Below, piece after piece: positions 8,555 through 35,878 of a DNA stretch of 64,000 bases. The DNA comes from Temnopleurus reevesii (taxonomy: Eukaryota; Echinodermata; Echinoidea; Temnopleuroida; Temnopleuridae). Location of the stretch: the NCBI GenBank assembly GCA_036244855.1, contig BQKZ01000627.1, forward strand, positions 42,714 through 106,713. Reading direction: 5' to 3'. Each line of letters starts with the position of its first letter. Within the stretch, counting starts at the first letter, position 1. The translations under genes were made by a program, and so were the position numbers. A model generated the notes under the pieces. The model was not told the DNA's origin. It searched no databases and was given only the letters and a program-made list of their open reading frames with translations.

Positions 8555-10195
8555 AAGTTTCTTGAAACTGTGGGTCAAATATTGCCCTAGATTTCTCTAA
8601 ACGTCTTTGACGAACCTATCCGAGACACTAACAAACTGACAAAGTCAGATCCTCGGTCGTTTTCTTTTTACATAACCTTACACTCTTACTAAAACTGACC
8701 TTTGGGAATCCTTTCTGATCTTATATTATCATGATTATCACACTTTAAAAACACCTTTTCCAAGGTCTACCCATGTTTCTGTAATATATGGCACCACTTT
8801 ATTTGATTAATGAACTGTATATTACGATAAAACCAGAAGCTAAGGACATTGCAGTAAGATTTGATTATAGTTTAATGATCTTCTGAAAACGAATTTTATA
8901 TATTTTCATTTTGAAAACAAATTTTTTTCCCTTAACTATCGTCGGGAAGAAAATTATGATGACCAATAATGATGATGGTATGTTCGACCTCATTGCTCTT
9001 GCAAACTGGTGTTTCGATAAAGAATTCTCGATGGGATATGGGGGCGATGTGCCCATACAGATTGTTCGTCTTTCTTTTGTCCCGACATTAACCATCATAA
9101 CAATTTTGTATTTTCCCTAAAAGTAAAAAATTAATAAATGAAGAAAATTGATTAGGAAAAGTATGACATATTTAGTTGTGATATAAATTCTTATTTTCTT
9201 TCCTTTAATCGAAATATTTTACCATTCTATTTAAACATGTCTTACGGAAATGCTGTGGAGTTTACAATCTTTAAACGTGAGAGGAATGAAACTATGAATT
9301 ACCCAATACTTAAAATCCAATTCTTTAATTTGAGAAGCTTTTTTATTTTTTAAACTCGAAGAATGTCAAAATATGTACAATTAAAAGGACACTTTTCTAT
9401 CACTGGAAAGTATATTAAATGAAGCAATAAAGTTACTCTTCTGCTAATGGAATTAGAAATGACTTTCGTTCATCAAATCATTTTGATGTTCACAGATTTT
9501 GATAGAAGACATACAACGCTTTAAAACCAGGGCAAATTCTTCCTTAGAGATCTATCTCTATAAAACTATTCATAAAACTATTCATAATTTGATATCCATC
9601 AGAGAGGATAACTCGCCATTTTAGGTTTAAAAATAAATCAATGAAGCTAAAAACTATATAGAATGAGTCCTTAAGAAGCAAATAAATACATCAATACCAA
9701 TGAATACTTGATGAATTAATTCTCTTTCTTGAGGCTACAGACAAAACGGGATTATAATTACCATCAGTGACGCACAAACAGCGATTACTGGTGGGCTTAT
9801 GCCAAGGAATTCGAATGCTAAATGCTACACCCCATCTTACAATGTATGCATTGTGCATTCAGAGGCATTACACGTAATAACTTGAAGAACCTTATGCAGA
9901 CGGGGTAATAAAGTACAATTAATCTAGGGATGTCTCACAGCTTAAGACCCCTCCACTTCCCCAATAAGACCCAGTCTCATCTTACAGGGAATCTCCTTAA
10001 TTAAATTGACGTCATATAATGAAATTATGCGCGCTTTGTGGTATAGCCGCAATGCCCCCAAATCTATGCTGGCATTGTGTATGATGATGGTATTTATGTT
10101 TTGAAGTGCAGGGTGAAGATTGAAATTCAAGATTTTTGAACGCCACAAGTATTATGATGATTTGGTGATGATACTGCTACTATACTGTTGCTCCT
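8555..10195. other. Intergenic, no gene recognised
   Basis: AT-rich, with scattered short open frames of no recognisable family. No clear repeat found. Confidence 0.5.
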
Positions 10196-10200
10196 AATAT

Positions 10201-10259
<59 letters not shown>

Positions 10260-10290
10260 TTACTACTATTACTACATGTACTACTAGTAA

Positions 10291-10349
<59 letters not shown>

Positions 10350-10702
10350 TTACTACTACTGCTACTACAAGTACTACGAATACCTCTGCTGCTACTACTA
10401 CTACTATTATTACCACTCCTACTACTACTACTACTACTAGTAGTAGTACTTCTACTACTACTACTACTACATTAAACTACTACTACTTCTATTACTACTG
10501 CTGCTACTATAAGTACTACGAATACTACTGCTGCTGCTACTACTACTACTACTTCTACTAATGATAATAATAATAATACTTCTACTAATACTGCTACTGC
10601 TGCTACAGCTACTTTAATATTATCATATTACTACCATATACTACTAATGCTACCACCACCACCATCTCTGTGAGTACTATTTGTACTACCACTACTACTA
10701 CT

Positions 10703-10754
<52 letters not shown>

Positions 10755-10780
10755 ATGCTACAACGACGACTACTACTTTT
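10196..10780. repeat. (TAC)n / (CTA)n trinucleotide tract
   Basis: Long, imperfect trinucleotide repeat in several blocks (10,199-10,360; 10,380-10,600; 10,680-10,755), giving artefactual poly-Leu, poly-Val, poly-Thr and poly-Ser frames. Ends in CTG/GCT-type triplets near 10,850. Confidence 0.97.
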
Positions 10781-10861
10781 TCTACTTCTATCACTACTTC
10801 TATTAACATTTATATCTATTACGAGAATGCTGATACTTCTAATCATGCTGCTGCTGCTGCT

Positions 10862-12201
10862 TCTATGGGCGTAGCGTTGAACGAGGAATTCGATTCAGGT
10901 GGGTTATATAAGCTATTGTTCAAAGGTGTGAGCCGGCCTTTAAACAGGTGAAATGTTCTCTGCTCATTTTTTGTCGAAAAATATACCCAAAATATAACCT
11001 ATTTTATGCGCGAAGAAAATTACGTGTTACCAGTGCAGTGATTTTATTTCAAAGGAAATAAGAAAATATAATACAATAAAATAAAATACAAAGGAAATGA
11101 ATGAAGTGATCGTGTAATAGTCAGGGCAATCTTGCACCAAACAATCATGACACTGCAACGCAGATATTAGGACATTCTTACGTTGCTATATTACAAAACC
11201 TACCTGAAACAAAAGTAGAATTTATTTTACACATGATACTTTAAAATGACATGTACTGCCTTGTATTATGAGAGGGCGCTTTTAAACGGACGAATAAAGG
11301 GAAATGACGAAGACGACTACTTAGATTAAAGATGTGTACATATGAATATAATAAAAGAAAGTCTATCCCGCGGCGAGGTTCGAATCTCAAACCTCTCGAT
11401 TTCTAATTAACATTCGCGGTCATAGTCCCGCAGTTGTAACTCAACAGCAATCATCTCGGGGTTTTAAGATCGGTACTGATCACAAATTTTCCTTTTCAAC
11501 ATAATTTCTCCTGAATAATGATCATTCTTAAATATTTTGTATTATTCATTTTATTGAATACATCACACTCAGTAATAAGGTAATGTGTTAGTTCTATAAA
11601 GAGGGGTCCAGTTTATGGTATTTTTATGAGCCAACATTTTGTGAAGATGTAAATGATATAAATGACGGATACAATGTTCATATACCAGGTTTAGAATCTG
11701 ATCACAGTCTCAATTTTCAATGAATTCACATTTCCATTCAAACTTTACTTCATTGATGTAAGCTTAAATGGCAACATATCCTTATGATTAAATTGCATTC
11801 TATTATCAATATTATTCTGATTTCTATATTCAATATCTTTTTGTGACACTGCTCTGCATTGCCGCATTTTTTTTAAACTTTGTGTTACTGGAGCAACTTT
11901 ATACTTAATACTTACGAATTGTTAATATTGCAAATTTCAAATACATTCATTCAACATATTTTTCACCAATTGAAATTTATACCTACATTTGTAATAATAA
12001 AGAGATTTACACAAATATTACGAAAGTACGATTATTGTTGTCATGTTAACTCTTACTTCTATTCAGCTGGTATTCTATTTACATTTCAACGTTGACCTCA
12101 TGCATATTCCGAAACGGTTAGCAACTCTTTATCACGTGAAGGTTGATTAAAATAAAAGAAAATAAGTGAATTATTATGGCTGAAATAAAACAATGTCTTA
12201 C
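10862..12201. other. No exon recognised downstream of the candidate signal-peptide exon
   Basis: AT-rich. I searched the minus strand for a continuation of the 12.2 kb exon and saw none. A GGTTCGAATC box occurs near 11,378 without a matching A-box. Confidence 0.5.
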
Positions 12202-13379: not shown

Positions 13380-14543
13380 TTACGAGGAAATTAAATTATT
13401 TTTCATTTTACGCGAGAAAGTATGCAGAGAAAGTGAATTTTGAACCGCTTCTGGCAGGGAGTTCCAAAGCTTGGGGCCTGAATAGCGAATGTCAAACTGA
13501 AATCTTCGGGTTCTATGTTTTGATAGGTGTATTTGGCTTGCACTTCTCGTATTATAATCATGGAACTCCGAATTCCTGCGGAAACAAAATTGCTCGTTAA
13601 ATTGACTAGGGAATATATTATTTGTACATTTATACATAAAGACACTCTGTTGGTGTAAGTTTATATCCGTTAATTTCAGTAGTTTTAAATCTTTAAAAAT
13701 AGGATTGGTGTGATCACGAAAGTTAGCTCCAGATATAATGCGAACTATCTTTTTTTGTAGGACTACCAGCTTACGGATATTCGTTTTGTTTGTGTTTGCC
13801 CAGATAAGATTACAATAGGTTAAATAGGGTAGGACAAGAGCACAGTATAAAATTCTTAGGATGTGTCCGGGAAGAAGGTGTTTGATTTTGGATATAATGC
13901 CAATACTTTTTGATATTTTGATTTCTACTTCAGAAATATGATATTTCCAAGAGAGGGAACTGTCCAAATAAACACCAAGAAACTTTGCCTTATCCACTCT
14001 TGGTAAGACTATGTTATCAATCTTAATGCTGATATCATCTTTACAAAATTTCTTTCCATTATGAAAAATCATATAATTGCATTTTTTTACATTTATGGAT
14101 AATTTATTTGCTCTGAACCATTCACATACCTGTGAAAGGCCTCGATTTGCTTCATCACAAAGGTATTTTAAATTTGAATTACTAATAAATATATTTGTGT
14201 CGTCTGCATAAAGTATGAAAGAGAGATTATATGCTGATTTATAGAGATCATTGATATAAATGATAAACAAGAGGGGACCAAGTAGGCTTCCTTGTGGTAT
14301 TCCACATGTAATTGTTTTAAGATCTGAAACAAAAGAGCTAAATTTTGTACATTGCAAACGATTGTTGAGGTAGCTCGAAAAGAACTCGAGGGCTGTCCCT
14401 CTTATACCGTACCACTTCAATTTCGATAAAAGGATTGTGTGATTAATCGTATCGAAAGCTTTCGATAGATCAATAAAAACCCCTAGTGCAAATTCGTTAT
14501 TTTCAAAGGCGTCCACTATCTTATTTGCACAGGGCTCACACAA
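13380..14543 (-). CDS. Non-LTR retrotransposon reverse transcriptase, 5'-truncated
   Basis: An uninterrupted 387-codon frame ending at TAA. It contains most of a LINE reverse transcriptase: block A FIDLSKAFDTI (about residues 23-33), block B CGIPQGSLLGPLLF (80-93), block C LYADDTNIF with the catalytic Asp pair at 114-115, then INVKKCNYMIF, FLGVYLDSSLSW and a C-terminal GPKLWNSLP segment. The layout fits the CR1/L2/jockey-like group; I cannot name the clade. The first codon is TTG and a TAA stop precedes it in frame, so the N-terminal RT blocks, the endonuclease and ORF1 are missing. This is the usual 5' truncation of LINE copies. The lack of internal stops suggests a fairly recent insertion. 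It is unrelated to the receptor gene beside it. Confidence 0.92.
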   Translation of the reverse strand: MCEPCANKIVDAFENNEFALGVFIDLSKAFDTINHTILLSKLKWYGIRGTALEFFSSYLNNRLQCTKFSSFVSDLKTITCGIPQGSLLGPLLFIIYINDLYKSAYNLSFILYADDTNIFISNSNLKYLCDEANRGLSQVCEWFRANKLSINVKKCNYMIFHNGKKFCKDDISIKIDNIVLPRVDKAKFLGVYLDSSLSWKYHISEVEIKISKSIGIISKIKHLLPGHILRILYCALVLPYLTYCNLIWANTNKTNIRKLVVLQKKIVRIISGANFRDHTNPIFKDLKLLKLTDINLHQQSVFMYKCTNNIFPSQFNEQFCFRRNSEFHDYNTRSASQIHLSKHRTRRFQFDIRYSGPKLWNSLPEAVQNSLSLHTFSRKMKNNLISS

Positions 14544-14610
14544 AATGCAAAAATCAAACTCTTATTCGACCAGTCCAGAGCCTATCAATAAGTAACTTAT
14601 AGATACACGA

Positions 14611-15875: not shown

Positions 15876-16477
15876 CTGAGGAGGGAGGAGGGAGGGATTG
15901 TCGGTAATTTGTGACCTTTGTGCACCTTTGTGTTGCATTTTGCGAAGTTAACTGTGACTGTTCTTCATTGTGGAATAGCGCCATCTTAAAACATTCTTCA
16001 CAAAAGGTGCACAGGCTTATCATATATTATCGTTTTATGGCCTACGTAATTATACCAAGCGTCTACAAGATGTACACAAGGATACGTTTGACTGATGCAA
16101 ATTATCTTCCCTGTTTATATGGTTTTTTAATCTGTTATCAAATATGCTGGGGATAAATTGGCTACAGACGCAATTGCGTGACTGACCATTTACATTAGAA
16201 ATATAAAGGTTATGTTTAAGACACAATGGGAATTTTATCTCCACCAGACCACAACCACCAACATCACCACGTCACCATCACCATCATATTCATACCCATT
16301 ATCACCATCTGCACTGAGCACCAGCAGCAGCAACAGCATCATCTCCACTATCGTCATTATCAAAACCATGACAGCCACCACCACCACCGTCATAATTATC
16401 ATCATCATGACCATTTATTTAATCATCATAATTATGATCATCGTCATCATCATCATCATCATCATCATCACTATCAT

Positions 16478-16500
16478 NNNNNNNNNNNNNNNNNNNNNNN
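16478..16500. other. Assembly gap (23 N)
   Basis: A run of 23 N between an (ATC)n tract and a C run; true length unknown. Confidence 0.98.
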
Positions 16501-16543
16501 CCCCCCCCCCCCCCTCTTCATCATCACCATCACCACCATCATA

Positions 16544-16708
16544 CCCTAGGCTTTCGGTGTGTGCAGGCGCAGAGCGTGATACAGGGTATGCATTGTATGA
16601 CTACATCACACCCAGCATTGATCTATGCTCAGCCTTGGCGAGAGCATGTTGACACACAATGCATACCCTGTATTACTCTCTGTACATGCACACAACGAAA
16701 GCCAAGGG
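16544..16708. mobile_element. Fold-back element inside the (ATC)n tract
   Basis: About 165 bp with arms of about 50 bases: CCCTAGGCTTTCGGTGTGTG on the left and CACACAACGAAAGCCAAGGG on the right, continuing inward as GATACAGGGTATGCATTGT and ACAATGCATACCCTGTATTA. It is flanked on both sides by trinucleotide repeats. Confidence 0.85.
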
Positions 16709-16724
16709 TCTGTTCTGGCAGACT

Positions 16725-16756
<32 letters not shown>

Positions 16757-16872
16757 CCCTCATTAACACCATCATCTCATTCCTCCCCCTCCCCTCCTCC
16801 TCCCCCTCCTCCTTATCATCCTCCCCATCATCCTCATCATCATCATCATCATCATCATCCTCCTCCTCCTCC

Positions 16873-16926
<54 letters not shown>

Positions 16927-16944
16927 CATCATCATCATCATCAG

Positions 16945-16983
<39 letters not shown>

Positions 16984-17100
16984 CATTAACACCATCCTCC
17001 CATTTCCCATTCCCCCTCATCCCCATCCTCCTCCTCCTCCTCCTTCTCATCCCCCTCCTTCTCCTTCTCATCATCATCATTATTATCACCATCATTTAAT

Positions 17101-17883
17101 TCTAATATTAAATCAGTCATCAGATTGATTATGATTCTAATTATGAGATACATATGGCTACTTCCATGGAACAATATAGCTGCAGTAGCAAAGACAAAAA
17201 CAACACCGGAACGAACTCATCAAAAGCAACACCACCATTAACAAAGGAACAACTATACCCTACATCGTGTTGGTTCTTGTATTGTGTCAAAACGTATATT
17301 TAATTAAATCTCCAACAAAACGGATGGAAGTGGAAATACATTTAAATATACACTGATAACCAGATAACCGATTACCAAGCTCTACACAACCGCTTGTAAT
17401 CGCAAACGATTTGGTTATTTGAAGACCAGTTAGAGTTATGCTTATATAGACATGGAAAAATAAGAAAAGGAAAAAAAAGGAAAAACAATTAGATCTCCAT
17501 TGCTGGAGTATAAAAAGAAATATGCAAATAGATTAATACAGATAAATTTGATATTTAAAATCACAGCAAGTCATATTAGCATCCAGCACTAGCTGCGGGA
17601 TCACCAAAGTAAGGTTTGTGTTTTTCTTTACATAATAATAAACATATTTTCATATCTCTCTATATAGGCTCTATATATTTCAATGTACACGCAATTCAAA
17701 AATGAAGAGAGACAAAGCCCTCTACGGCAATTTTGCGAACAGCATGAACAGCAAAATGAACTACCTCTACTCGTACATTGTAAACACCTTACTACGTTCC
17801 TCACCCCATGTACCAATAATGCCTTCACATGCATGGGATTACACATATATGCAGGACCAGCCGCAGAAATGTTCTACCAACCT
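17101..17883. other. Intergenic, no gene recognised
   Basis: AT-rich. Overlapping open frames at 17.68-17.96 kb run into the fold-back element and show no known domain. Confidence 0.5.
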
Positions 17884-21018: not shown

Positions 21019-21228
21019 TTATCCCGTGACTGGGAGTTCGGTTGTCGGTCCTTCCGTCGGAGCCTCTGTCATTGCGGCAAGATCTCTCTCGACCTGCGTC
21101 ACCACGGGCTCGAATATCAGAGGGGCCGATAGGATGATGCCTGATGTCCCGCAAATAACGCAAATTAAAAAAATCCAGAGAAATATCCGGTCGATTACCA
21201 TGGCGACGTATTTCCAATCTTCTGTTAC
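21019..21228 (-). CDS. nAChR exon 6: M4 and extracellular tail
   Basis: 210 bp including the TAA stop, acceptor ACAG. It reads [20 protein letters not shown] and continues through a hydrophobic M4 (about residues 455-479). The join after DDFNS is phase 0 and recreates the standard (E)[11 protein letters not shown] motif. After M4 there are about 35 further residues, rich in Thr, Pro and Glu ([16 protein letters not shown] at the end). Many nAChR subunits have a shorter extracellular tail. Confidence 0.95.
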
Positions 21229-24200
21229 CTGTAGATAATATGAGAAGGAAAAATACAGATAAAGATTGGATAAAAAATGATGACATTATGAGATCATAAT
21301 TAACAAAATGACCTGTGATAAACCGTAAGATGTACATGTATATTGTGTAATGGTAACGTCTTTGAATCGCAATGACTTGCCATCGATTTGAAGTCAATTT
21401 TCTTCACCATTTTCCACTTTTAGGGCGCTCAAACCATCGAGTTGGCAAGATGATGACGCAACATTTCACTTACTTTGGGGCACACAAATTATCTGATACC
21501 CTTTTTGTTTATATACCTTTTTTGCTTGTCATTGACTGATGGTGGGGGTTAGGGGGAGGGAAGTCGACCCCGGGTTGGAAAAATCCGGTTCACTAACCAT
21601 TTTCCATCTTTAGCTTGAAATTGAAAAAAAAAACGTGATTTTCCTCATCTATATTCATTATTCATTCTACATCTGGTCGCATTTATATCTTGTCGTGAGA
21701 TCCATGGACCTGTTGACAAGCACATGGGTATAGTTGGAACTGCTTTTGCAAATTCCTTGTCAGACTGAATAGAAAAAAATTATAAAGGACCATGTTACGC
21801 TTCAATGCAGGTATACTGATAAATGAAAGGCTGACCCTAACCAGTTATTTGATAGATCTGGCCATTTCTTTGTCAGATTTGGTAATTTGTGTCGTCAGAT
21901 ATTATATTCATGTGTCAGATATGGCCGTTCCTATTTCAGATCTGGTAATGTCTGTGTCAGGTCTGGTCATTTCCTTGTTAGATCTGATCATTTCGTTGTC
22001 AGATATTGTAACTTACATGACTTTATGTGTCAGATCTGGTCACTGTGCCAAATATGGTATCTCTGTTTTAGATCTGACCATTTCAGGGCCATTATCTATG
22101 ACATATGTGGCCCCCAAAACCCCTTTTCTATACGAACCTTTATTTTTAAAAAGGACACTTTCAATTTCACCAATATGATTTGTTTTTACTATAATCAACT
22201 ATTTCCCTTAAAGTGAACTAAAACTGACCCCGTTCATCATCATGCCACATATTGATGGGCATGGACTTTGAGTGTTTTACTTGAAATATCACATATCACG
22301 TTAAATCCATGTTCAATGACAATTGACGTAATGACCAGCTATCATGAGCCATACCTCATGTTGAAGGCAATGAGTTTCTTTTCATGAATGTTATGCAAAA
22401 TGCAATGCTTCCTCCTTTAATATAAGATTTTGAAACATGTAACGAAGACAAACCTTTTGGTCGCATACGTCACAAATAATGACCCTTCTGTTTCAAGATC
22501 TGTGACAGCCTGATCACAAGTCGTGCGTAAAGTCGTTCTTAAAGTCTTTCGTAACTTGGTAAAACGCCGTCCTGGTCATTTCTGTCGTCATATGTGACAT
22601 TTTCTTTGTCAGTACTTGTAATTTCTGTTTCAGATCTGGTAAATTATGTTTTCAGATGGTTTCATCTCTGTCAGGCCTGGCTCTGTCTGATGTCAGATAT
22701 AGTATTTCTGATACAGATATAGACATTCCTGTTTCAAATAATCTTGGTCACTTCTTTGCCAGAACTTGTAATTTCAATGTAAGATATGACCCTTTCGGAT
22801 TTGAAAATATCTGTCAGTCTGTCGTCAGATATATGGTAATTTCTGTCATATTATTATAATTATTATTATTATTATTAGTATTACTATTATCATTATATGG
22901 TCAAATGTACACCCAGGGGCCTGTAACATACAGTAAAAGAGATTATAGATTGATAATTAATCGTATATTTATGGTACCTGTTTTGTCATAGACTCACGAT
23001 TAATATCTATTGTAAGTTTAATTGCATCTTTTATGTTACAGATCGCATATATGGTAACTTCTGTGCCAGCTCGGGTCATTCTTTTGTCTCACATCTGGTC
23101 ATCTCCGTGCCAGATTTAGTTATTTTAGTGTCAGGTCTTTTCACTTCTTTGGCAGGAGGATGTTTAATGACGCTTGTAGCCAGTGACAAGTGGTCATTTT
23201 CCGACAGTTTCAATATCAACAGTCAGTGCTGACTAATTGTTGCTGGCGACAAGCTTACTGATACCTCCTCCTGGTCATTTTTGATAGGATAATCTCTGTG
23301 TTCATGGCCAATTCTGTGTCGAATCGGACCAGGTACCACAAATGCTTTATGGCACTGGAACGGAGATGGAGCAAAATAAATCTTTACCGTCTTTAATTTA
23401 ACGCCAGAATATTAAATCTTATACTAATCTATTTCCATCCATACTAACATCAATATTGAATGGATTAAAACCAATTCATCGTGAGCATATTTTGATGCCA
23501 AAATTGCAATGACACAACTAGTTTCATGTGTGCTGTTTTAATACATACGGATATGTATTCTTATTAAAGTCCACAGATCTTATGCCAGAGGGTTAAAACT
23601 GTCTTCACGTTGTACAATGTTGGCATGAACCTGACATTGTGTTAACGTAACACCGTTGATTGAATAATGCTTACTGAATTAAAGTCGTCCTCGCTCTTGA
23701 GATGCTGTGCAATAAACTTGACACCATCGACGGCCTGCTTGAACTCCTTCGAGTATCTGCCTCCTCCCTTCGACATTGAGGGCGTGTCCATGTTCGGACT
23801 CCCGACGTCATCGGAAAGAGTTCGGAGTTTGAAACTCGGGTGAAGGTTATCAAATATGTCGCGACCGTTGCTATGAGGGTTTTCCCCATCTTTGTGCACC
23901 ACCTCCTTAAGTTCAAAATAATTAACGTCCTTTTCCTTGGTATTGTGTTCTGGGTGTATGTGCCTCTTGGGTCTTTTCATGTACAATATCGGCGGCAAAA
24001 CTTCGAGGAAGACTTTACGCACCCACGGTCGCATCGTGTGTGTGCTGGGCGCTCTGTAGTGAATGTTCAGAACGATTACGGTGATGACGATGGAGAGGGT
24101 AACGAGGACCATGGTGAAGAGAAGATAGCGACCGATGAGGGGGATAAGAAGGGAGGTCGGGGGAATGATCTCCGCGATCAGCAGGAGAAACACAGTCAAG

Positions 24201-27200
24201 GCCAGAAGCACGGATATACAGAGTGTGATCTTTTCTCCTGAGTCTGAGGGTAGATAAAACACGAGAACTGTTAGAAAGGAGATGAGGACGCATGGAAGGA
24301 TAAGATTGACCGTGTAAAAGAGCGGCTTCCTGCGGATGTGCAGCGTGAATGTAATGTCCGTGTAGATTTCATCGCAGCACGGGTACTGAACGACATTCTT
24401 CTCAGATGGCGTCGAAATGATGTCCCATTCGCCGCTCTGCCAGTAATCTTCCAAATCGACATCGTCGCTCCAAGGATGCAAGTCGATCAGGCTGCCATCA
24501 TACGTCCACGATCCAAACTTCATCGGGCATGATTGCTCATCAAAGGGGAAGTATCTGACGTTGATCTTGCAAGAGCTTTTATAAATAGCAGGTGGGAGCC
24601 AATATACCGTGCCGTCGTTGTAAACCAAAGCCTTCGCCATTAGGGTCACCTCGTAGTTACCATCCGCACTGTGTGGAAAGAAAAGAAAATAGGTCTTAGA
24701 AATGGAGAAAATGATATTAGAATATCGAAGCTTCTCAACGTAATTTTTCCATCTTGTAATGTCCCGGGCCCCACTGCCTAATTTTTTAAAAAAATCATTG
24801 ATGCTATCGTTGTCAGTAATACTGCCTGCTGTATCCTCAACCCATTGACTACTGAATTCTGTAATACCCATACAATTTGTGTAGGGACTACCCGGTTCTA
24901 GTAGTCAAAGGGTTAATGATCATGATGATGACTAGCCAATGTGCCTCGTTGCGATGGCAATAGCTACTAGTAACAAAGTTACCATAAATGGTAAATTTCA
25001 TCCAACAGGGGCCCCCTAGGTGGTTTCTTTAAAGGTCTAATTGTTAAGACCAACTGTATGTTTTCTTGTATAAGTAAGAGATCACCCAATTCCTCAGAGA
25101 AGCAAATGGGATAGACCATCATTGAAGTAAAATCAAAAGAAATGTTGGATTAACTCTTTTGGCTTTCATTTGTTTCATTAAAAGTACGCGGTAATTCACA
25201 ACGAAATGTTTGGTATTTGTCGATAATGACGGTTCATTATAATAGAAGTGTTAATTATGATTAGGACATTTAATTTAGAAAAATCTCAGCAAATTGGGAA
25301 GGGTCACATCACTGACATGAACTAATTAGAAAAAAGTGTCTCTTCGTTAACATTAAAAGAGGTCGAAACAAATTAACAAATCTAAAACACACACGAAAAA
25401 ACCAAATCATTATCATGAATTAAAAAAGGTGCCCACCCCATGTGGATTAATCTATTTTAGTACAAATCATCTTTCAAAGTAAACAAAAAAGACAAACCAG
25501 AAAAGGTATATTAGTTTTTGGGCGCTTTGGGCCACATTGGGAGAAGCGCAGTGTAAGAATTAGTATTATCATTAATCATTATTAGTACTCGTTTATGGTT
25601 CGGTAGATACACCAGTACACGAAGACAACATTATTATTCGATTTTTTTTATTGACCGACACATAAAAGCATTTTATTCAAAAGAAAAGTTTTGATCATCA
25701 CATTTTCGGGTATGGTTGAGCATAATAAGATGATTTATTTATCGATTCTTCAGGCATTTTTCTTTAGATTATTTGAATTGAAATAGTGGGAAACAATACG
25801 ACAGAAACACCCATTGTATTCCTGTCATTAATACGTAATAAACTTATCAGACAATGGTCAACATAAAAATAAAATAAAAAGGAATAAAAACAAACCAAAC
25901 GGGAGATAATTAATGTACTTCATTAAAACAGCGGGCAAGCATTCGTGTCGATAGTATTAATGTGTCAATTGAAGAAGTACTTAAGTCAAATCAACCCTTA
26001 GTATCTTGCATGGTTGTGCTGGAAAAATCTTTATATCACTAAAATTTGTCATTGACATCCAAAGCATTAATAGCCTGCGTCAACACAGCGTTTTTGAAAG
26101 TTAAAAACGCTCCCCGGACACTCAAAGACGCAAGTCATACAGTGGACTGGAGATCGGCATACGTTCCTTGAGCGCAAGCGGAACCTCAGTCCCACCTTCT
26201 GATCCGCGTACACTGTGCGCTCGGGAAGCGTTTTTAATTTAAAAAAATACGCTGGGCCAACGCAGGCTAAAACGCAAAGGTGTGAGTCAACCATAAGATA
26301 TGTTGCAAAAGTGGCCTTTATACTTTGAGTTAATTTGATATAGGTACTTCTTCAATCAGGGTCACCAACTGTTCTGTTTCCAAAATCAGAACTCAAACAA
26401 CATTCCCAGAGTCACGTGACTTTTAAAAACGCAGGCTGTGACACAAATGGATCATCTTCATGCGATGGGGATAAGGTCAAATGAACTATGCATTCAGCCT
26501 TCTCTTACTCTGCAAACAAAGACACTATCAAGGTAGTTTATTTAGTGCCGTATATTACAAAGACACTATCAAGGTAGTTTATTTAGTGCCGTATAATACT
26601 CGTTGGAGTGTCTGTTTCTTGATGGGGGAATCTAGCACGGCTCTACAGAACAGTATGGTATGAACGGTGCTGTGCAGCTCCACCCCAATTCATTAATTCC
26701 TTCTTGTATTTGGCACTAAAACAACTTATGATTGGTCTTTGTTTGAAGAATAGCGTTCTCTGGTCACTCTCCTCAAACCATTCCTATCTTACTTGTTGTA
26801 CAGTATTAGACCAGGGGTCCATATTTCTTGGGACGGTACTCTAAGGACCTCTATATTCTCGTATTCTTCGAGATCCCACGTGAAACGATAGTCTTTCCAT
26901 TGCTGCTTTGAAAAGAAACGACATGGTAATAAGGACAAAACTCTAAAAGAATAACCAAAACCCGGATGTTGGTTTCATAGGTACTTCCTGTTTTTGATGG
27001 CTTCTGGGCATGTGGACACGCAGTTCCCAATTTATACGGTATAGAATAACAACACGTGCCTTTAGGTTGTTCAAATTATCAGGTAGCAAATCTAGTACAC
27101 CTGGTGCGCACATTGCTTACACTGCGCGAGATCCCTTCCGTACTAGATGAATACCCGGATGTTCCTACCTGGATATGAACAACCATGAAGGCAGGTATTG

Positions 27201-30200
27201 TCAAAGGAGACGTTAACGTGCTTTGCAGCAAGTTATCTCTTTTCGTTTTGGTTTAATATTTGGGGGTACTGCGGGAAACGTCACGAGTGTAGACGAAAGT
27301 AGGAAGATGCCCTAAAACCTAGGTAGTACTCTATAAGCATGCAATCTGCTTACTTGTTGTACAAGACCAGATCTGGGGTCCATATCATTTTAGATGGAAC
27401 GCGAAGAATGGAGATGTTGTCGTAGTCCACGGGGTCCCAAGTAAGCTTGTAATCTATCCATAACTGCTCATTATAGTAAAAATAAGATACGTTTGTTAAT
27501 AGAGTGACTTGTAATTTTGTGTGTTAGGAAACATCATGCTTACTTGTTGTACAAGACTAGGTCTGGGATCCAAATCATTTGGGATGGAACACGGAGGATG
27601 GCGATGTTGTCGTAGTCCGCAGGATCCCACGTTAGCTTGTAATCGTTCCATAGCTGCTCATTGTAGTAAAGACAATACATGTTGATTAATTCAGTAATAT
27701 GGTACCCTATTCATGAGGAAATATGTTTAGTAGGAGAGCAGAGTGTGTTCGAACAATGTCTGCTCTAACTCGTCTAGAGCGGCTGCGAGTACGAACAAAT
27801 TATATGCCACATTCGCATAGAAACCCAGAGGCAACACGACTCAACAAGACTCTTTCTTCTGAAGCATTAAACAGTGAAATGAACAAACAGTCGTGTTGAA
27901 TCGTGTTGCTTCCAGGGTCCTATGCAACCATTAAATACATGTGGTGAACGAACACACGCCACTCTCACTTACTAGCAGTACTAGATAAGATCTAAGCCCA
28001 TATCATTTGGGATGGAATGAAGAACACGGAGACAAGGTCGAAGCTCAAAGGGCCCAAAGTGAGCTTGTAATCTGTCCAATTGTGGTCTAACCTTTGGTTT
28101 ATATATTGATTTGTGACTTTATAATAAAGCAATCGATTTAAAACATTACTGATATGAACCTTGGTTTTAATTGAGAATGTGGGCAATGAGCAGTTTACAT
28201 ACATTTTTATATAATTACCCAAGTTACCTCCGCACAACCCATGTAAAACTATATTTCAGTGTAAAGGTATAATATACCAAAGATGATGATAAAAGTAAGA
28301 TGATGCGCTAAGTTTTACATTGGTGTTTATCAAGCAAACTAGCTCATCTTTCCCGGAGAGAGCTTCTGGTTGATACAATTCACTGAATGGGCTAATGTCA
28401 ATAAAAAATGCTATATTGATACATTTCAGAAAGTTACGGTATCCAAATGTCAATGGTTATTTTTTCCAGCCATTACAAAGGTCAATCAGAAAAAATAAAA
28501 GATCTCCTTCTAGAAATACTTCTACAACTAAAAACAGTTTTACATGGTTTTGGGAAGCTATGTTGGGGGAATTTGACAGGTAAAACTTCACTGCGAGTTA
28601 CCCACAACTTCCTCTTAACTGATGATCACACAACGAGCAAGTTCAATTACACAGAATGGAATAGGATAGTTAAAAATGGGTCAGAAATCAAACAACACAG
28701 CATTTTGAACACTGGATGTGCTAGAGAAGACCATGCGATGGGTTGAGGCAAATCAACTCTCTCCATGTGGTAAAGCAATCTGCAAGTCATTCCTATCTTA
28801 CTTGTTGTATAGAATAAGACCTGGAACCCAAATTTTCTGGGACGGTACTCTAAGAATCGTTATATTATCAAATTCGGCTGGGTCCCAAATGAACCGATAG
28901 TCATTCCAGTCCTGTTAATGAAAAATTGAAAACAATAATCTGATAATAATAACAAAAATAATAATAATAATAATAATAATGATAATAATAGTGATAATAA
29001 TAATAATAATCTAAATTGCAATTATGGGTTACCTTCAAGAGATTATCGAAATAAAAAAAGAGACATCCACCTTGGTAGGTTATCATCAGGGTAGTAATAG
29101 TACAATGAGTATGGTCCTTGGTAGGTTATGATCAGGATGGTAATAGTCCAATGAGTATAGTCCTTGGTAGGTTATCATCAGGGTGGTAATAGTCCAATGG
29201 GTATGGTCCTTGGTAGGTTATCATCAGTATGGTAATAATCCAATGAGTATGGTCCTTGGTAGGTTATCATCAGGGTGGTAATAGTCCAATGAGTATGGTC
29301 CTTGGTAGGTTATCATCAGGGTAATAATAGTCCAATGGGTATGGTCCTTGATAGGTTATCATCAAGGTGGTAATAGTCCAATGGGTATGGTCCGTGGTAG
29401 GTATCATCAGGGTGGTAAGAGTCCAATGAGTATGGTCCTTGGTAGGTTATCATCAGGTTGGTAATAATCCAGTGAGTATGGTCCTCGGTAGGTTATCATC
29501 AGGTTGGTAATAGTCCAAAGAGTATAGTCCTTGGTAGGTTATCATATCATCAGGGTGGTAATAGTCCAATGGGTCTGGTCCTTTGTAGGTTATTATCAGG
29601 ATAGTAGTAGTCAAGTGAGTTCGTTTCTACATGAAGTGATTGAGATTGATCGATGATAGATAATACGTCTGTCATCTTCAAGTAAAGATGGCATTTGACT
29701 CAATGTTACATGATTATTCTGCACGAAATCGTTGTTAATAATGAGAAACGCACGCATTACCTGTTTTAGCCAAACGTTGGTCGTCATAATTTGGTTCTTT
29801 TCGTCCTGTGAAGAAAAAAGTCAAAGGGAAATTAAACAATAATTTTACTCATCAATATTTTAGGAAAAATATATCTCTACCGTATTATCTCTAGACCCAT
29901 TAATCTTTGTCATGGATTAATAAATAAAGCAATAATGCAATTCACTTCCGGGTCATTGTCAATCATTCAGTCTTACAGTTCACCCAGGAATGTTGGGTTC
30001 TGACCTGTTTGAAAAGAGTTTCCTTTTCGTAGAACTACACACATCCAGAAACTATTTGGCTAACCCTCTCCTGGCACTTTTTTTTTTAATACTGGCTGAT
30101 ACTTTAAAACATGATGCTCATGATATTGTGCAGATTGTTACTGATCATTGGTGTACAACTAGCCATCATTGAATTGATATTTTTGGTGCAAACTTCATAA

Positions 30201-33200
30201 TTTCTTCAGAGAGATACAAAATCTGTATGACATGAAAATAGGGAATCTAAATACTTACAATGAAGACCCTATAGTTATCGTTTCAAAGAAATCATATCTT
30301 AAGACACCCTATTGATATATTTTAAAGAAATGATACTTTTGGGGGGAAAATAACATTTTATAACATTGATATAATAGCAATGAAATAACATATATATTGG
30401 CCAGTTGTGCACCTATGACATCATTAGTTGCCAATTTTCTAAATATATAAGCATTTGTAATTTTCTCATTAGTTGTCCATTGTTATATCTCTGTTCATCT
30501 GAGTTATCTTCTCCTACTGAATAAATATCATCATAATTATTATCTATATTTTTGCGGAGGGGGGGGGGGGGTAGAATATTTATGTAAGATACTTACAACG
30601 TCGATGAGTTGCGACATGGTCAGTCTAAAGTTGACCGTTAAAATATCCGAGTTGTTCTCGACTGGTCTGATAAGCCTGTTGTACTTGTAAAATAGTTTAT
30701 TGAATAGTCTCTCCTCAGCCTCTGACGATGTACATCCTGAAACATAAAAGAGCGATGATGAAATATATATGATTAAAGACGCGATGTAATATAACGATTG
30801 TATATAATTATATTCAGGTGAATGAAAAACCACCTCCCCCATTCCAGTGCAGAATGCCCATGGAGGTAACATTTTAGCATCTTTGAAGCACAAAATATTT
30901 TTAACAATTCATGTACACTATCAACCATTCAGATGACAATTAAGATCTGGCAGTTGAGATTTTTTTTTTAGAATAACACCAATGTTAATTATTGCCTTTG
31001 AATTCTTTGCTCAATTCCTAGGATCAATGATGAGATTATTGGAAAAGCAGTCTGGGCTTTCTAAAGCTCTTTGGATGCAGGGTTTTTTAGGCCCCTGTTA
31101 CACCGAAAAAAAATAGCGACCCTGGGTCGGTTTCGGGTCGCTTTGGGGTAGGTTTGGGGTCGTTAATTTGTTGGTGTAAACACGGAATTCTTTTCTTCGA
31201 TGTCAACTATATTTTTGCAGGTAAACGTGTAAGAATATGAAAAAAATACCGTTAACAATCTGGAGCCAATTGCACGAAATGGTCTTAGCTATCCGCTTCT
31301 TGCTAAGACGATTTGACTTCTTGTGCCAACCTCTTAACATGGACGTATAGACACAAGTGTATATGTTAAGAGGGTGGTAAAAGAAGTTAGGATGTCTTAG
31401 ATAAGACCATTTCGCGCAAAATGCCCCAGGTGATCATGGCGCATAAAGCAGATTTTCTGGAAAGCCTGCTTTCGCCTTCTTTGATTTTATAGTTTAGTGT
31501 GATAATAGAAAACTATTTTGAGATTTGGTACTTTAATCAAATGATCCCTCTGGCACTATTATTTATGTGCGAAGGATGGATGATAGAGGACAGAAAAAGG
31601 AAACCCAGATCGATCAGAAGAACAGCGACTCACTGTTTCTACTCGACGAAAATTGTTAGAATAATGAGATATGGCAGAAGCAGGTCATTGTCATTTATTG
31701 TAAATTAGACTGCTTGTCTGACTTCATTCAAATAGATCGCCTCAGGTCTTCCATAAATTAGCTCCACGGTGTGGCTCGTTGCGGATAAATAGATTACTCC
31801 TTCAACACGTTCCATCAAATTAAAGCCTCTGTTTTAGCGAAAAACTTTATAAACAAACCTGTATCAAATAGTCTTTTAATTATCATATTTCTATTTTCAC
31901 CATTTTAGAATATTCAGGTTTATTGTTCATACTTCCACACGCCAGTTGTCAAGATAAAGTGTATGATCACATTGATTATCATGTTTATCATCATAACGTA
32001 AACAGAAGCTCGCATTTCATTCAGGTAAATGTTAAAGATAAGAATGTTAGCCAGATTATATAGTTTGTATATGAATACAGTATTGAACCTCAAACTTAGA
32101 CTTTTTCTCAATTCTCGATTGGATTATCAAGGTAAGTTATCGCTAGTGTAAACCCCGTTGTAATGGAGACACTGGTGAAGTATCCCTTCCTTGGTGTGTA
32201 TATAAGGTAAAACACCACTCCGAAATTATTTTTTTAACTTTCGATTACAGTCACAAGCCCGCTCCGATTTCTATAGCATTGAGATGGCGCGTTCGACTTA
32301 ATATTGCAGAAATAAATCTTATCGTGTAAACTCTACATATACGCAGATTATGCCAATGCCAACAATCCAAGATATGTACAATGCTCAAAATAATTACACA
32401 GGTCTTCCTTTCTAGACCAAAAATTCGTAAACAAAATTAGATATTCAATCATTTTTGCTTACCCATGCATCCCCGGATGACTTAGTGTTAAGGCCGAATC
32501 ACAATTTTGCTATTTTAGCCGGTGTCGGCCCAGCGTATTAGGAAATTAAAAGCGCTCCCTGGAAGCACAATGTACGCGGATCGGACAGTGGACGGACGTT
32601 CGCCTTGTGCTCAAGGAGCGTACGCCGAGCGTCGGTACAACGGATGACTTGTGTCCATGTGCGTCCATGGAGCGTTATTTTTTCAATGTCCAAACACGCT
32701 GGACCGACGCAGGCTTAAAAGGCAAAGGTGTGAGTCGGCCTATAGCGAGACATGACCAAATGCGATAATACATCAATATTGAACATGACCAACTAAAACG
32801 AGCTCTACCACAGTCAAGGATCTTGTTCCTAATCCATTTAATCTATTACATACGTGTAGATATTTCTATTAGTAAAGACATGGCTGTCACGTCTGAAAAA
32901 CAGTCATCTTCGTTATAAATGTGACATTTGATGAGGTCCAGGCAAGGGGATTCATTGTATTGAGAGATGGAAAGGTGACATGGGGAGCTGGTGAAATAGT
33001 TGGCTTATACCAAACTTCAGTGATATAATATCTATCAAATACTTCTCCAAAACGTCCCACATGATAGTTAGTACCCCTACACAATCACTAACCATTACGG
33101 AAAGTCATAAAGGAGGGATTTACGATAATGGAATTAAAATTAGAAATATTTCATTTGCATTTTTCTATTTGTCATTTGTAGCATGATAATTCCATAAATG

Positions 33201-33613: not shown

Positions 33614-35878
33614 TTCAAGCGACCATCAACCCTTTTTTAACTTGGACCCGCCTTTAGTTTCCCCTATTCATCCTCCATGGCTACGCCATGATTCCTGGTG
33701 AGCTCGAAACGATTGCTTCAGAGATACTGAATCTCTGAAGGATAAGATTATAAGAACTCAACGGGGGTTTATTTACCACGAAGAAATGCACGCATGAGTC
33801 AAATGTTAAAGTATCATGTTAATTAAACATGGCGATATAGCCACGAATATTAAGGTCTAACAAAGTGACGTCGTGATTCTGATACATTTAAATTTTCCTG
33901 CAAATTGCCTTTCGATTTTAGAGATTAAGTTGGCATTCTAGATTTCAATGTAATGATGATGAATTTAGATTTGAAGGTGTTCCTAATTCAATTCTGAATA
34001 TTTACGCCGTGGTAAATGTAATACACAGCACGCCACATTACATTCCAATACGCAAACATTGATTTGGCAGCCAGGAAAATAGTGTTCAACCAGTAATGAA
34101 CGCCACACTTTCAAATGTCACGTGGTATTTTCAGGTTATATTTGGTATATTGGTTGTGTCTTTTGAAATCAAGATTCGTGCCCTGGCCGCGAGTTGGGAA
34201 GGAAATGAGAGCTACGGCGTGCAATCTAACATTTAAGCTCTCCTCCGCCATGTCTGGGAGAGGAGAAAGGAAAGAAAGGAAAGCATCTATTTAGCTAATC
34301 CTATGACGTCACTGTAAATGTTTCGCCATATATACGATGCGCTATCGGTCGTTTAGTGTGTTAGGTGTAGACGAGGGGAATGGGGTTTGTTTCGAGTTCG
34401 GTGGATGAAACAATCAAAGATAGATAGGAAAGAAGTGGGGTATGGAAGGATATATGCTACAAATGGCCATGCTTTAATACGAGTCAAGGATGGAGAAATC
34501 TTTGAAAAAGAAAGTTATCTGAAACGATTGTGGGGTTATCTTTAGGAGAATGATGGATGATATTTGTATTTTTTAAGTTGCCGAATAGATAGTGATAATG
34601 ATAATAATGATAATAATAATCATAGATATAAAAATGATAATAATTCAATGTGTTGGTTCACTTAGTTTTCATAATTATAGTACATTTTAGCCCTTTGAAC
34701 CCTGACTTATTTTCAAATTTCGTGAGCTATACCCCGAGTTATTTTACGTTTTGTGCATTCTTGACTTATGTCAAAAATTTGAACAATTCAATTCAATGTT
34801 TTTTTTTTTATCTTTAATCACATAAATTCTGTATTTGTCTACTATAAAAAGTTTATTCAGCACAGAATAAAATAATGAATAAAAGCGAATGTGCTGACAA
34901 ATAAAATGAATAGTGAATTTTACTTTCTCGGCATGGCCTGAAAACCGGCCATTAGGGTTCAAAGTGTTAGCAACAGAGTTGACGACAATATTTCAGAATT
35001 TAAAAGAGCGGTCTTCATTACGTTTAATGGCAAAGGATGCATTGATAAATTGGCGCAACCATAATTCAAGGTAATCATTCAAGGTCAAGTGATATGCAAA
35101 TACATGGACAAACTGTCTTGATGTAGGAATCGGACAACTCTGAACTTTACAAAGTCTGAACTTTACAAAAGTGTACCTATTAGATATTCAAAATGTAGAA
35201 ATAAAAAAAAAATGATAATGCAACAGGCTGATAAACTGTTTATGGAGTAAGGAGCCCCAAATTTTGCACCCCCACCCCGACCCTTTTCACAAACTTGTGA
35301 TCCTCTATTCGAGCATCCCCCCTTGAAAGAGATATTACGCCCAAATGCGAATATTCTCATATCATTACATAACATTTTAACAGTGAAAAAGATACCAAAA
35401 CCCCTTAAAGGGTTGCAGTATTTCATAATTTGATCAATATATAAATTCGAATCCGATTTTGCATTTTCAAACACACAAATATAATGGGCACTAACCGGAC
35501 AGGTTATTGTCTGAATACTGCACATACTGCACACTAAAGAAATGAAGGTGCAATCTTGCACCCTTAGCGGAACAGCCAACGGTGCAATAAAAACACCCTT
35601 TCGGCGGAGCTCTTCAAATTAAGCATAGTGAATACCACCACCCAAATGGGTGCTGTCATTGTACCCTGAGGGGTGCGAAAGGGTCCAAAATGACGCCCTA
35701 ACTTTTTAGTGTGTGAAGGATGATAAATGGGGCTTACCTTGTGCAAAGGCGAGGAGCATGATGGCTACTATCAAGGATTTCATGATCAAGCTGCATGTGG
35801 TACCCGTCCTACCCCTATCTACGCTGGTCGATGTGTTTCGGCATACCCTCAACGGTTGGCTGCAAAGTGAGTCCAGCC
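21019..35878 (-). CDS. Nicotinic acetylcholine receptor alpha-type subunit gene (whole gene, six exon positions)
   Basis: Ligand-gated cation channel subunit of the Cys-loop family, acting in the plasma membrane as part of a pentamer. The spliced reading frame is 35,783-35,738, 30,736-30,597, 29,805-29,761, one of four alternative 110-bp exons, 24,668-23,675, then 21,228-21,019. Every junction has GT/AG sites, the phases agree, and the total is 514 residues. Landmarks by residue: signal peptide about 1-16, loop D Trp74, loop A Tyr112, Cys-loop Cys147-Cys161, loop B Trp168, loop C Tyr209/Cys211-Cys212/Tyr216, M1-M3 about 232-316, M4 about 455-479. The vicinal Cys pair defines an alpha subunit. 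M2 has Glu at -1', Leu at 9' and Glu at 20', the pattern of cation-selective channels. The M1-M3 region most resembles the neuronal alpha3/alpha4-like group rather than alpha7, but I cannot assign a vertebrate orthologue, so no symbol is given. Exon 4 is the anomaly: five tandem copies, one dead. Confidence 0.95.
21843..22110. repeat. 21-bp degenerate tandem repeat, part 1 (nAChR intron 5)
   Basis: Successive units of about 21 bases of the form TCAGATCTGGTCATTTCTG. Because 21 is a multiple of three, the plus strand shows a 7-residue periodic open frame ([21 protein letters not shown]). That frame is a by-product of the repeat, not a gene. Lies in the last intron of the receptor gene. Confidence 0.8.
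22575..23330. repeat. 21-bp degenerate tandem repeat, part 2, interrupted by an FB-C element
   Basis: The same TCAGATCTGG-type units as at 21.84-22.11 kb, more diverged, continuing on both sides of a fold-back element at 22,916-23,040 and a short (ATT)n tract near 22,856-22,890. The repeat is therefore older than the insertion. Confidence 0.65.
22916..23040. mobile_element. FB-C fold-back element, copy 1 (nAChR intron 5)
   Basis: About 125 bp bounded by inverted ends related to GGGGCCTGTAACATAAA. The centre contains related inverted segments around ATAGATTGATAATTAATC. Similar copies are at 53.9 and 58.1 kb. No coding capacity; a non-autonomous DNA-transposon-like (MITE) element is the simplest reading. 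Confidence 0.7.
23675..24668 (-). CDS. nAChR exon 5: Cys-loop, loops B/C, M1-M3 and cytoplasmic loop
   Basis: 994 bp between a CCACACAG acceptor and a GTAAGC donor, encoding residues 115-445. Seen in order: the Cys-loop with 13 residues between Cys147 and Cys161, containing FPFD; loop B WTYDG (Trp168); loop [10 protein letters not shown] with the adjacent cysteines of alpha subunits; M1 with its conserved Pro239; M2 starting [18 protein letters not shown]3; and a cytoplasmic loop of roughly 125 residues. The loop ends in an amphipathic basic segment ([18 protein letters not shown]), as expected for the MA helix that frames the ion portal. In vertebrates this region is usually split differently or is one large exon in neuronal genes, so a single exon is normal. 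The frame continues upstream to an ATG at 24,871, but that part is intron. Confidence 0.97.
26071..26292. mobile_element. FB-A fold-back element, copy 2 (nAChR intron)
   Basis: About 220 bp. The left arm starts TAGCCTGCGT and the right arm ends in the inverse, ACGCAGGCTAAAACGCAAAG then GTGTGAGTC. The inner arms AAACGCTCCCCGG and CGGGAAGCGTTTT are also inverted. One of six family copies in the window. The outermost left end is lost. Confidence 0.85.
26517..26598. repeat. 41-bp direct tandem duplication
   Basis: Two near-identical 41-base units starting CAAAGACACTATCAAGGTAG, directly adjacent, in the intron just downstream of exon copy 4A. Confidence 0.85.
26793..26902 (-). CDS. nAChR alternative exon 4, copy A (last of the array)
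   Basis: 110 bp, acceptor AGCAG and donor GTAAG. It begins [18 protein letters not shown] and ends [10 protein letters not shown]. Like copy E it has Gly in place of the loop A Asp, and Arg-Phe instead of Lys-Leu near its start. There is no sequon at residues 93-95. The intronic bases following the donor (GTAAGATAGGAATG) are the same as those of copy E, supporting a common origin. It is the copy nearest exon 5. Confidence 0.9.
26903..27353. other. Intron between exon copies 4B and 4A
   Basis: 451 bp with normal splice ends. No other exon-like sequence or repeat recognised in it. Confidence 0.6.
27354..27463 (-). CDS. nAChR alternative exon 4, copy B
   Basis: 110 bp, acceptor AGCAG and donor GTAAG. 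It begins [18 protein letters not shown] and ends [10 protein letters not shown]. It has the canonical WxPD-xxLYN loop A. Asn-Ile-Ser at residues 93-95 creates a sequon absent from the otherwise similar copy C. Joined to exon 5 the codon becomes AA|T, giving LYNNADG, the usual family junction. On loop A sequence this or copy C is the most conventional version. Confidence 0.92.
27544..27653 (-). CDS. nAChR alternative exon 4, copy C
   Basis: 110 bp, acceptor AGCAG and donor GTAAG, same phases as the other copies. It begins [18 protein letters not shown] and ends [10 protein letters not shown]. It retains the conserved loop A Trp, Asp108 and Tyr112. There is no N-glycosylation sequon (Asn-Ile-Ala). 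It is very close to copy B in coding sequence and in the bases before its acceptor, so the two are a recent duplication. The spacer to copy B is only 80 bp. Confidence 0.92.
27802..27936. mobile_element. FB-B fold-back element, copy 3 (between exon copies D and C)
   Basis: About 135 bp with inverted arms related to CGGTCACATAGGACCC at the ends and CAACACGACTC / GAGTCGTGTTG inside. The outer ends are more diverged than in the copies at 4.6 and 15.4 kb. It lies inside the short spacer between the dead exon D and exon C. Confidence 0.75.
27973..28081 (-). pseudogene. Dead copy D of nAChR exon 4
   Basis: A recognisable but broken member of the exon array. It reads [15 protein letters not shown] and later PSQMIWA, followed at once by a TAG stop where the loop A Pro-Asp should be. 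The alignable length is 109 instead of 110 bases (one net deletion), the second Trp of the family is Leu, and no AG acceptor sits at the expected exon start (CCAC instead of CAG). The GTAAG donor survives. It is closest to copies B and C. Splicing it in would truncate the protein in the ligand-binding domain. Confidence 0.85.
28082..28801. other. Intron between exon copies 4E and 4D
   Basis: 720 bp. Contains short open frames in both directions but no exon-like match to the receptor and no clear repeat. Confidence 0.55.
28802..28911 (-). CDS. nAChR alternative exon 4, copy E (first of the array)
   Basis: 110 bp, acceptor AACAG and donor GTAAG, entering in phase 0 and leaving in phase 2 (the last Asn codon is completed by exon 5). 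It encodes 36 residues beginning [18 protein letters not shown] and ending [10 protein letters not shown]. Loop A Trp105 and Tyr112 are kept, but the residue after WxP is Gly instead of the family-wide Asp. Asn-Ile-Thr at residues 93-95 is a glycosylation sequon. Both the coding sequence and the intron just after the donor resemble copy A, so A and E form one lineage. It is the copy nearest exon 3. Confidence 0.9.
28932..29010. repeat. (TAA)n microsatellite
   Basis: Imperfect AATAAT repeats immediately upstream (in gene direction) of exon copy 4E, inside intron 3. Confidence 0.9.
29070..29625. repeat. 46-bp minisatellite, about 12 units (nAChR intron 3)
   Basis: Head-to-tail units of about 46 bases beginning CCTTGGTAGGTTATCATCAG and ending near AGTATGGT. 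I count twelve, with a few point differences, single-base deletions and one unit with an extra ATCAT. There are no unique spacers, so it is not a CRISPR-like array. It sits between exon 3 and the exon 4 array. Confidence 0.95.
29761..29805 (-). CDS. nAChR exon 3 (45 bp): loop D strand
   Basis: The exon encodes [15 protein letters not shown] (residues 63-77) between a CACAG acceptor and a GTAAT donor. A 45-bp exon at this place is a hallmark of animal nAChR genes. Trp74 corresponds to the loop D tryptophan that lines the complementary face of the agonist site in neighbouring subunits. Both ends are in phase 0. This exon is single copy here, unlike the next one; no second version is seen in the flanking introns. 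Confidence 0.95.
29806..30596. other. nAChR intron 2
   Basis: 791 bp between exons 2 and 3. A run of G (30,557-30,571) lies near the donor of exon 2. Nothing else recognised. Confidence 0.6.
30597..30736 (-). CDS. nAChR exon 2: N-terminal ligand-binding domain
   Basis: This 140-bp exon encodes residues 17-62: the N-terminal helix ([19 protein letters not shown]) and the first beta strands, ending at SQLIDV, where nAChR genes usually join the 45-bp exon. The acceptor is TTTCAG and the donor GTAAGT. It contains an N-x-S sequon (Asn43-Asn44-Ser45), a possible N-glycosylation site. The exon enters in phase 1 and leaves in phase 0. The sequence matches the family well at RP-V-N and LT-SQLIDV. Confidence 0.95.
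31262..31427. mobile_element. FB-D fold-back element, copy 2 (nAChR intron 1)
   Basis: About 165 bp. The left end is GGAGCCAATTGCACGAAATG and then GTCTTAGCTATC. The right end carries the inverse (TAAGACCATTTCGCG ... GCCCC). Inner arms CCTCTTAACAT and ATGTTAAGAGG form the centre of the hairpin. The same family occurs at 408-590. Confidence 0.85.
32490..32741. mobile_element. FB-A fold-back element, copy 3 (nAChR intron 1)
   Basis: About 250 bp starting AAGGCCGAATCACAATTTTG and ending GGCAAAGGTGTGAGTCGGCC. The ends are inverse complements over about 45 bases with mismatches. The interior contains GCGCTCCCTGG and GAGCGTACGCCGAGCG segments shared with the other copies. Confidence 0.85.
33572..33610. 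repeat. (TC)n microsatellite
   Basis: A nearly pure CT dinucleotide run of about 39 bases in intron 1. Confidence 0.95.
35738..35878 (-). CDS. nAChR exon 1: end of 5' UTR and signal peptide
   Basis: Coding starts at the ATG at 35,783-35,781 and reads [15 protein letters not shown] plus the first base of a Gly codon. It is followed by a donor GTAAGC at 35,737. The peptide is a short basic start plus a hydrophobic core, a typical secretory signal peptide. The exon ends in phase 1 and joins exon 2 as G|GA, giving Gly16. No upstream in-frame ATG is seen in this exon. A strong acceptor (pyrimidine-rich tract then CAG, at 35,881-35,879) lies 95 bases upstream of the ATG, so transcription probably begins in a further untranslated exon upstream. 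The coding part is clear; the upstream acceptor is inference from sequence only. Confidence 0.85.

Follow-up and report, generated by a model that had tools for sequence, protein, structure and literature searches.

Tandem loop A exons as a putative four-way alternative cassette in a sea-urchin nicotinic acetylcholine receptor gene

Why should a gene for one receptor subunit carry the same short exon five times in a row, four times intact? The question is raised by a 64-kb stretch of DNA from the sea urchin Temnopleurus reevesii (the whole of which is called the window here), whose minus strand holds a nicotinic acetylcholine receptor (nAChR) alpha-subunit gene with five tandem copies of its loop A exon between exon 3 and exon 5. 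In the direction of transcription the copies are labelled A, D, B, C and E, of which D is dead. We propose that the other four quite probably act as a four-way cassette, the tandem-duplicated loop A exons of this echinoid gene being used in a mutually exclusive manner.

Identity of the gene

As judged from its sequence, the predicted product is a nicotinic alpha subunit, as an earlier note on this DNA had proposed. Both Pfam channel domains are found in the protein assembled with cassette E (PF02931, Neur_chan_LBD, E 2.6e-77; PF02932, Neur_chan_memb, E 8.6e-79). Exon 5 (23675..24668, minus strand, 994 bp) encodes the rest of the ligand-binding domain, transmembrane segments TM1-TM3 and the intracellular loop, and supplies the vicinal cysteines of loop C (YxCC, here YPCC), the GEK ahead of TM2 that marks cation channels and both cysteines of the Cys-loop, which are not in the cassettes. 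Of the solved structures, a neuronal acetylcholine receptor subunit alpha-4 (8ssz_A, E 4e-166) matches best. The closest proteins are from sea urchins, in agreement with the earlier view that the animal is probably not an insect: Strongylocentrotus purpuratus, an echinoid of the order Camarodonta (P0001, 91.8% over 497 amino acids, with cassette C in the query), followed by Lytechinus variegatus (P0002, 91.1%) and Diadema (P0003, 84.3%).

The cassette array and its reading frame

On the minus strand, cassette A occupies 28802..28911, the dead cassette D 27973..28081, B 27544..27653, C 27354..27463 and E 26793..26902; these positions, already given in the earlier note, proved exact. A, B, C and E are each 110 bp long and open, are preceded by AG and followed by GTAAG, are entered in phase 0 and left in phase 2, and join exons 3 and 5 in frame. 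They are thus tandem homologous exons of one length and phase, as in a mutually exclusive cluster. D is 109 bp long and contains a TAG stop and a 1-nt deletion, visible as a one-base gap in the alignment; it has no AG at the homologous acceptor, one AG lying a few bases upstream, and is nearest in sequence to C and B. With D counted as an exon, the introns from exon 3 to exon 5 measure 849, 720, 319, 80, 451 and 2124 nt.

Such an array is far beyond chance. A tblastn search with the S. purpuratus protein finds C at E 8e-16, B at 1e-14, A and E each at 2e-11 and D at 2.6e-4. At E up to 1, tblastn turned up no additional convincing cassette in the 64 kb, nor any convincing duplicate of exon 2 or exon 3, the weak leftover matches (E 0.02 to 0.96) including some antisense to cassette C itself.

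Exon 3 (29761..29805, minus, 45 bp, located by tblastn), which we take to encode the loop D region, ends in phase 0. Exactly one cassette, whichever of the four is used, gives a full-length frame from the end of exon 3 at 29761 to the start of exon 5 at 24668. Early stops follow when no cassette is included (1/1), and likewise with two (6/6 ordered pairs), three (4/4) or all four (1/1). The one-cassette frame logic set out in the earlier note therefore holds for every combination, and the frame itself is a means of excluding double inclusion, all 11 of the 11 multiple inclusions stopping early.

Divergence, selection and age

The four intact cassettes agree pairwise at 68 to 92 of their 110 bases, that is, they differ at 18 to 42. 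Identity at third codon positions ranges from 9/36 (A-B) to 24/36 (B-C), and at first and second positions from 26 to 33 of 36. By the Nei-Gojobori method the ratio of nonsynonymous to synonymous divergence (dN/dS) is 0.07 for B-C (dS 1.01) and 0.17 for A-E (dS 1.16), with Fisher tests on rounded counts giving p 2e-6 and p 2e-4, respectively; the remaining four pairs, which set A or E against B or C, are saturated at synonymous sites. Because of these low ratios and this saturation, we regard the cassettes as old, selected exons and not as copies made in assembly.

A neutral simulation (half the pairwise dS on each branch, without indels, 20,000 runs for each cassette) gave a chance of 0.031 for A, 0.040 for B, 0.041 for C and 0.023 for E of keeping both an open frame and intact AG/GT sites, and in 0/20,000 runs per cassette did the protein stay as near to its starting point as the real members of a pair are to each other. 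The dead cassette D, inside the same array, is an example of the outcome of decay.

The age of the B/C split can be approached through other sea urchins. The cassette in the S. purpuratus model labelled isoform X2 has 31/36 residues as in C and 29 as in B, that of L. variegatus X2 has 32/36 as in C and 29 as in B, and that of Diadema X2 has 30/36 as in either; all three have D at position 31. Five sites separate B from C. At three of them S. purpuratus and L. variegatus both agree with C, and at one of these three Diadema agrees with B; at one of the remaining two, S. purpuratus agrees with B. This pattern fits, without proving, a B/C split older than the three lineages; B could alternatively have diverged later from a C-like parent. 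The B-C dS of 1.01 speaks for the old split. The X2 labels themselves, carried by four echinoderm models (P0001, P0002, P0003 and P0014), hint at other isoforms.

Two classes of cassette and the loop A aspartate

The intact cassettes fall into two classes, a division that adds to the earlier note. B and C encode the canonical W-x-P-D, whereas A and E encode W-x-P-G and have lost the loop A aspartate; W-x-P and the loop A tyrosine are retained in all four. The classes differ at five residues, A and E having R, F, E, G and I where B and C have K, L, D, D and V (positions 6, 7, 13, 31 and 33, respectively). Position 31 is the aspartate of W-x-P-D, presumably Asp89 in Torpedo numbering.

These residues were compared with those of 225 distinct proteins, the best-listed matches from searches with this gene and hence not a random sample; a strict pattern matched 206/225 and a looser one 220/225, the motif being missing in 5. 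Among the 206, all but one (205) have L at position 7, the exception having M, and likewise 205 have D at position 31, the exception having E; under the looser pattern, position 31 counts 219 D and 1 E. Position 33 holds V in 201 proteins, with L and I twice each and A once. At position 6, K (143) and R (56) predominate; position 13 is variable.

The part played by the aspartate has been debated, reportedly in studies by Lee and Sine (2004) and Cashin et al. (2007). W-x-P extends to W-x-P-D-I/V in nAChRs and 5-HT3 receptors, which are cation-selective, and the aspartate was first assigned an indirect role via hydrogen bonds to loop B, later work describing a redundant network in which it is not necessarily required (PMC4006026). 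The loss of the aspartate in A and E may thus have a strong or a mild effect.

Proposed mechanism

We suggest that each productive mRNA would carry one of A, B, C and E, and that transcripts with a wrong number of cassettes would be removed by nonsense-mediated decay. The choice of cassette would swap the segment from just past loop D through loop A, and subunits made with A or E, lacking the aspartate that has been proposed to brace loop B, might show altered agonist-binding kinetics or assembly. It is possible, though we put it forward tentatively and with more doubt than confidence, that receptors containing these W-x-P-G subunits respond to agonist with strongly altered kinetics or prefer another ligand, cells of the sea urchin thereby selecting, with a single gene, either a canonical pocket or one without the aspartate.

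For B and C, the 80-nt intron between them (27464..27543, minus) may also hinder joining sterically. A branch-point-like motif stands 33 nt before the AG in both B and C (a motif match only), and in the B-C intron this motif lies 48 nt from the B donor, with three more candidates at -61, -20 and -14. Among human mutually exclusive exon clusters, 377 (60%) contain exons whose length is no multiple of three; in 57 (9%) the donor lies less than 50 bp from the branch point, which makes a steric block possible (PMC5740500). Because the candidate at 48 nt falls below that human limit, steric exclusion of B and C is plausible. The pyrimidine fraction of the acceptors, over the scored window, is 0.57 for B and 0.62 for C versus 0.71 for A and 0.67 for E.

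Points against and rival explanations

It is important to weigh what stands against a four-way choice. The use of the cassettes in T. reevesii is predicted from genomic sequence. The unique changes of each cassette are few (synonymous/nonsynonymous 4/4 in A, p 0.05; 2/0 in B, p 0.04; 1/2 in C, p 0.50; 2/4 in E, p 0.60), and constraint is shown for pairs and not for each cassette. Sterics are ruled out for A-B, which are separated by 1148 nt with D between them, and for C-E, separated by 451 nt. A scan of 46033 pairs of 36-nt windows (step 12) across the six introns, set against 6 shuffles, gave no docking site: the best energy is -28.8 versus -27.8 to -36.4 in the shuffles, and no site reaches more than 5 partner introns, a maximum that all 6 shuffles share. 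The same scan points to somewhat more pairing capacity than in the shuffles, pairs at or below -16 numbering 2050 versus 1599 to 1852 and so exceeding all 6, and raised pairing capacity is reported in mutually exclusive clusters (PMC6071210). Finally, no loop A of the A/E type was found among the 225 listed relatives (including those from the A-type search, region 60-101, 9 matches, and from the E-type search, region 47-105, 120 listed of 860 matches) in a protein database that keeps one representative per 90% cluster, where isoforms more than 90% alike would stay hidden; three W-x-P-G matches among these proteins lie in another stretch, not in loop A.

Some of this could be accommodated by supposing that productive splicing is confined to the canonical B and C, or to C, and that A and E are old copies decaying as D has decayed. 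The three named sea-urchin models (P0001, P0002 and P0003) do carry B/C-type cassettes, the unique-change counts of E are not significant, and the L-to-F and D-to-G changes that A and E share at near-invariant sites could be damage. However, A and E are both intact with their AG/GT sites and show constraint as a pair, and residues so unusual, common to both despite their synonymous divergence, are more readily explained by retention of a class than by decay occurring twice independently; we therefore consider such decay unlikely. If some cassettes had a role as poison exons, selection would act on dosage control, inclusion of a second cassette reducing expression by way of nonsense-mediated decay. 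This would account for the early stops of every double, triple and quadruple inclusion. An exon of this sort has no need to conserve the protein it encodes, though, and the low dN/dS implies that the amino acids matter, which makes this role as the sole explanation less likely again than decay of A and E; it can coexist with a choice among four coding cassettes. That the copies are assembly or haplotype artefacts is scarcely credible: the 27 N in the whole window are all that could be held in favour, false duplications are near identical whereas the intact cassettes are not, and intron lengths from exon 3 to exon 5 vary between 80 and 2124 nt. We reject an assembly artefact on the divergence of the cassettes, and retain the four-way, mutually exclusive loop A cassette as the preferred reading.

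Remaining exons and other features of the window

The coding part of exon 1 lies at 35738..35783 (minus), from the signal-peptide ATG at 35783 to the donor (AFAQ G/gtaagc); tblastn located the signal peptide at 35783-35736 (minus), and the exon end was counted by hand. The open frame of exon 1 runs 5' to an AG at ~35880 that follows a pyrimidine-rich run, and the S. purpuratus and Lytechinus models reach further N-terminally than exon 1 does here; an upstream exon and alternative starts are therefore likely. Exon 2 (30597..30736, minus, 140 bp) and exon 6 (21019..21228, minus), which encodes TM4 and the stop codon, were both located by tblastn.

Repeats are scattered through the introns around the cassettes. 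The intron between exon 3 and cassette A contains an array of a 46-bp unit at 29070-29620 (12 copies of a 41-nt core), adjoined by an ATT/ATA-rich stretch directly before cassette A. In the intron before cassette B, two 45-nt arms at 27815-27859 and 27881-27925 form an inverted repeat (80% complementarity, 21-nt loop), perhaps left by a mobile element or serving as a regulatory hairpin. After cassette E, a 41-bp unit stands in tandem duplicate at 26516-26597 with 98% identity.

Elsewhere in the window, a 393-codon open frame at 13380-14561 (minus) with a reverse transcriptase domain (PF00078, E 1.7e-24) is a piece of a retrotransposon, and long trinucleotide repeats at 10127-10951 and 16182-17128, the second holding an N run, give rise to artificial open frames in several frames. 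No tRNA was found in the window, and no Rfam match there reached the gathering score.

Comparison with known alternative exons

The earlier note had appealed to alternative exons of insect nAChR genes as precedent. That insects have tandem alternative exons in the nAChR ligand-binding domain stands, but the exons it named are not homologous to those described here: Drosophila alpha4 exon 4 is assigned to the Cys-loop, and alpha6 exons 3 and 8 to loop D and TM2, respectively (PMC8505678, Table 1), whereas the T. reevesii cassette encodes the stretch up to loop A. Since insect alpha4 exon 4 encodes loop E and the Cys-loop, the shared name 'exon 4' is a coincidence of numbering. The first interpretation of the locus is, on the whole, partly supported.

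Closest in kind are exons 3a/3b and 8a/8b/8c of insect alpha6, which belong to the same receptor family, arose by tandem duplication and are chosen exclusively, exon 3 lying in the ligand-binding domain (PMC8505678, PMC1919356). They differ in encoding loop D (exon 3) and TM2 (exon 8), in two or three copies, and in silkworm alpha6 both copies of exon 3 can be included with the frame kept (PMC1919356), whereas double inclusion here breaks it. Exons 4 and 4' of insect alpha4 are likewise tandem alternatives in the nAChR ligand-binding domain, but number two and cover loop E and the Cys-loop region; a figure legend in the same source marks loops B to F, and not loop A, on alternative exons (PMC2064938). 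Bombyx alpha8 exon 7 is alternative at TM2 and TM3 (PMC2045683). Tandem alternative exons also occur in other Cys-loop channels, with exons 3a/b/c in Tribolium RDL and GluCl and a triplication in Ixodes RDL (PMC2064938, PMC9219234). These are anion channels with three copies; the Tribolium exons alter residues near loop D (PMC2064938), while the variable stretch of Ixodes RDL spans 154 residues whose loops are unnamed in the available text, and overlap with loop A is possible (PMC9219234).

In the portions of these sources available, the nAChR alternative exons described are thus from insects and affect loop D, loop E/Cys-loop or TM2/TM3, with no loop A exon, and no Cys-loop receptor case has four copies. 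Neither an alternative loop A exon nor echinoderm nAChR splicing was found among the titles and beginnings of abstracts listed by literature searches, most subscription papers being outside that scope. The choice of one among several tandem exons is shared with Dscam and with human clusters of 3 to 10 exons (PMC1397879, PMC5740500), which belong to other gene families and differ from the array here, where no RNA-pairing docking site was detected.

In its general type, the T. reevesii exon cassette is familiar; for its site in the receptor and for its phylum we found no report, and the loop A class without the aspartate is unexpected. The gene could encode four forms of the receptor, of which two would lack a near-invariant residue of the binding pocket; if true, a four-way loop A choice in a deuterostome would amount to a natural experiment on a debated residue.

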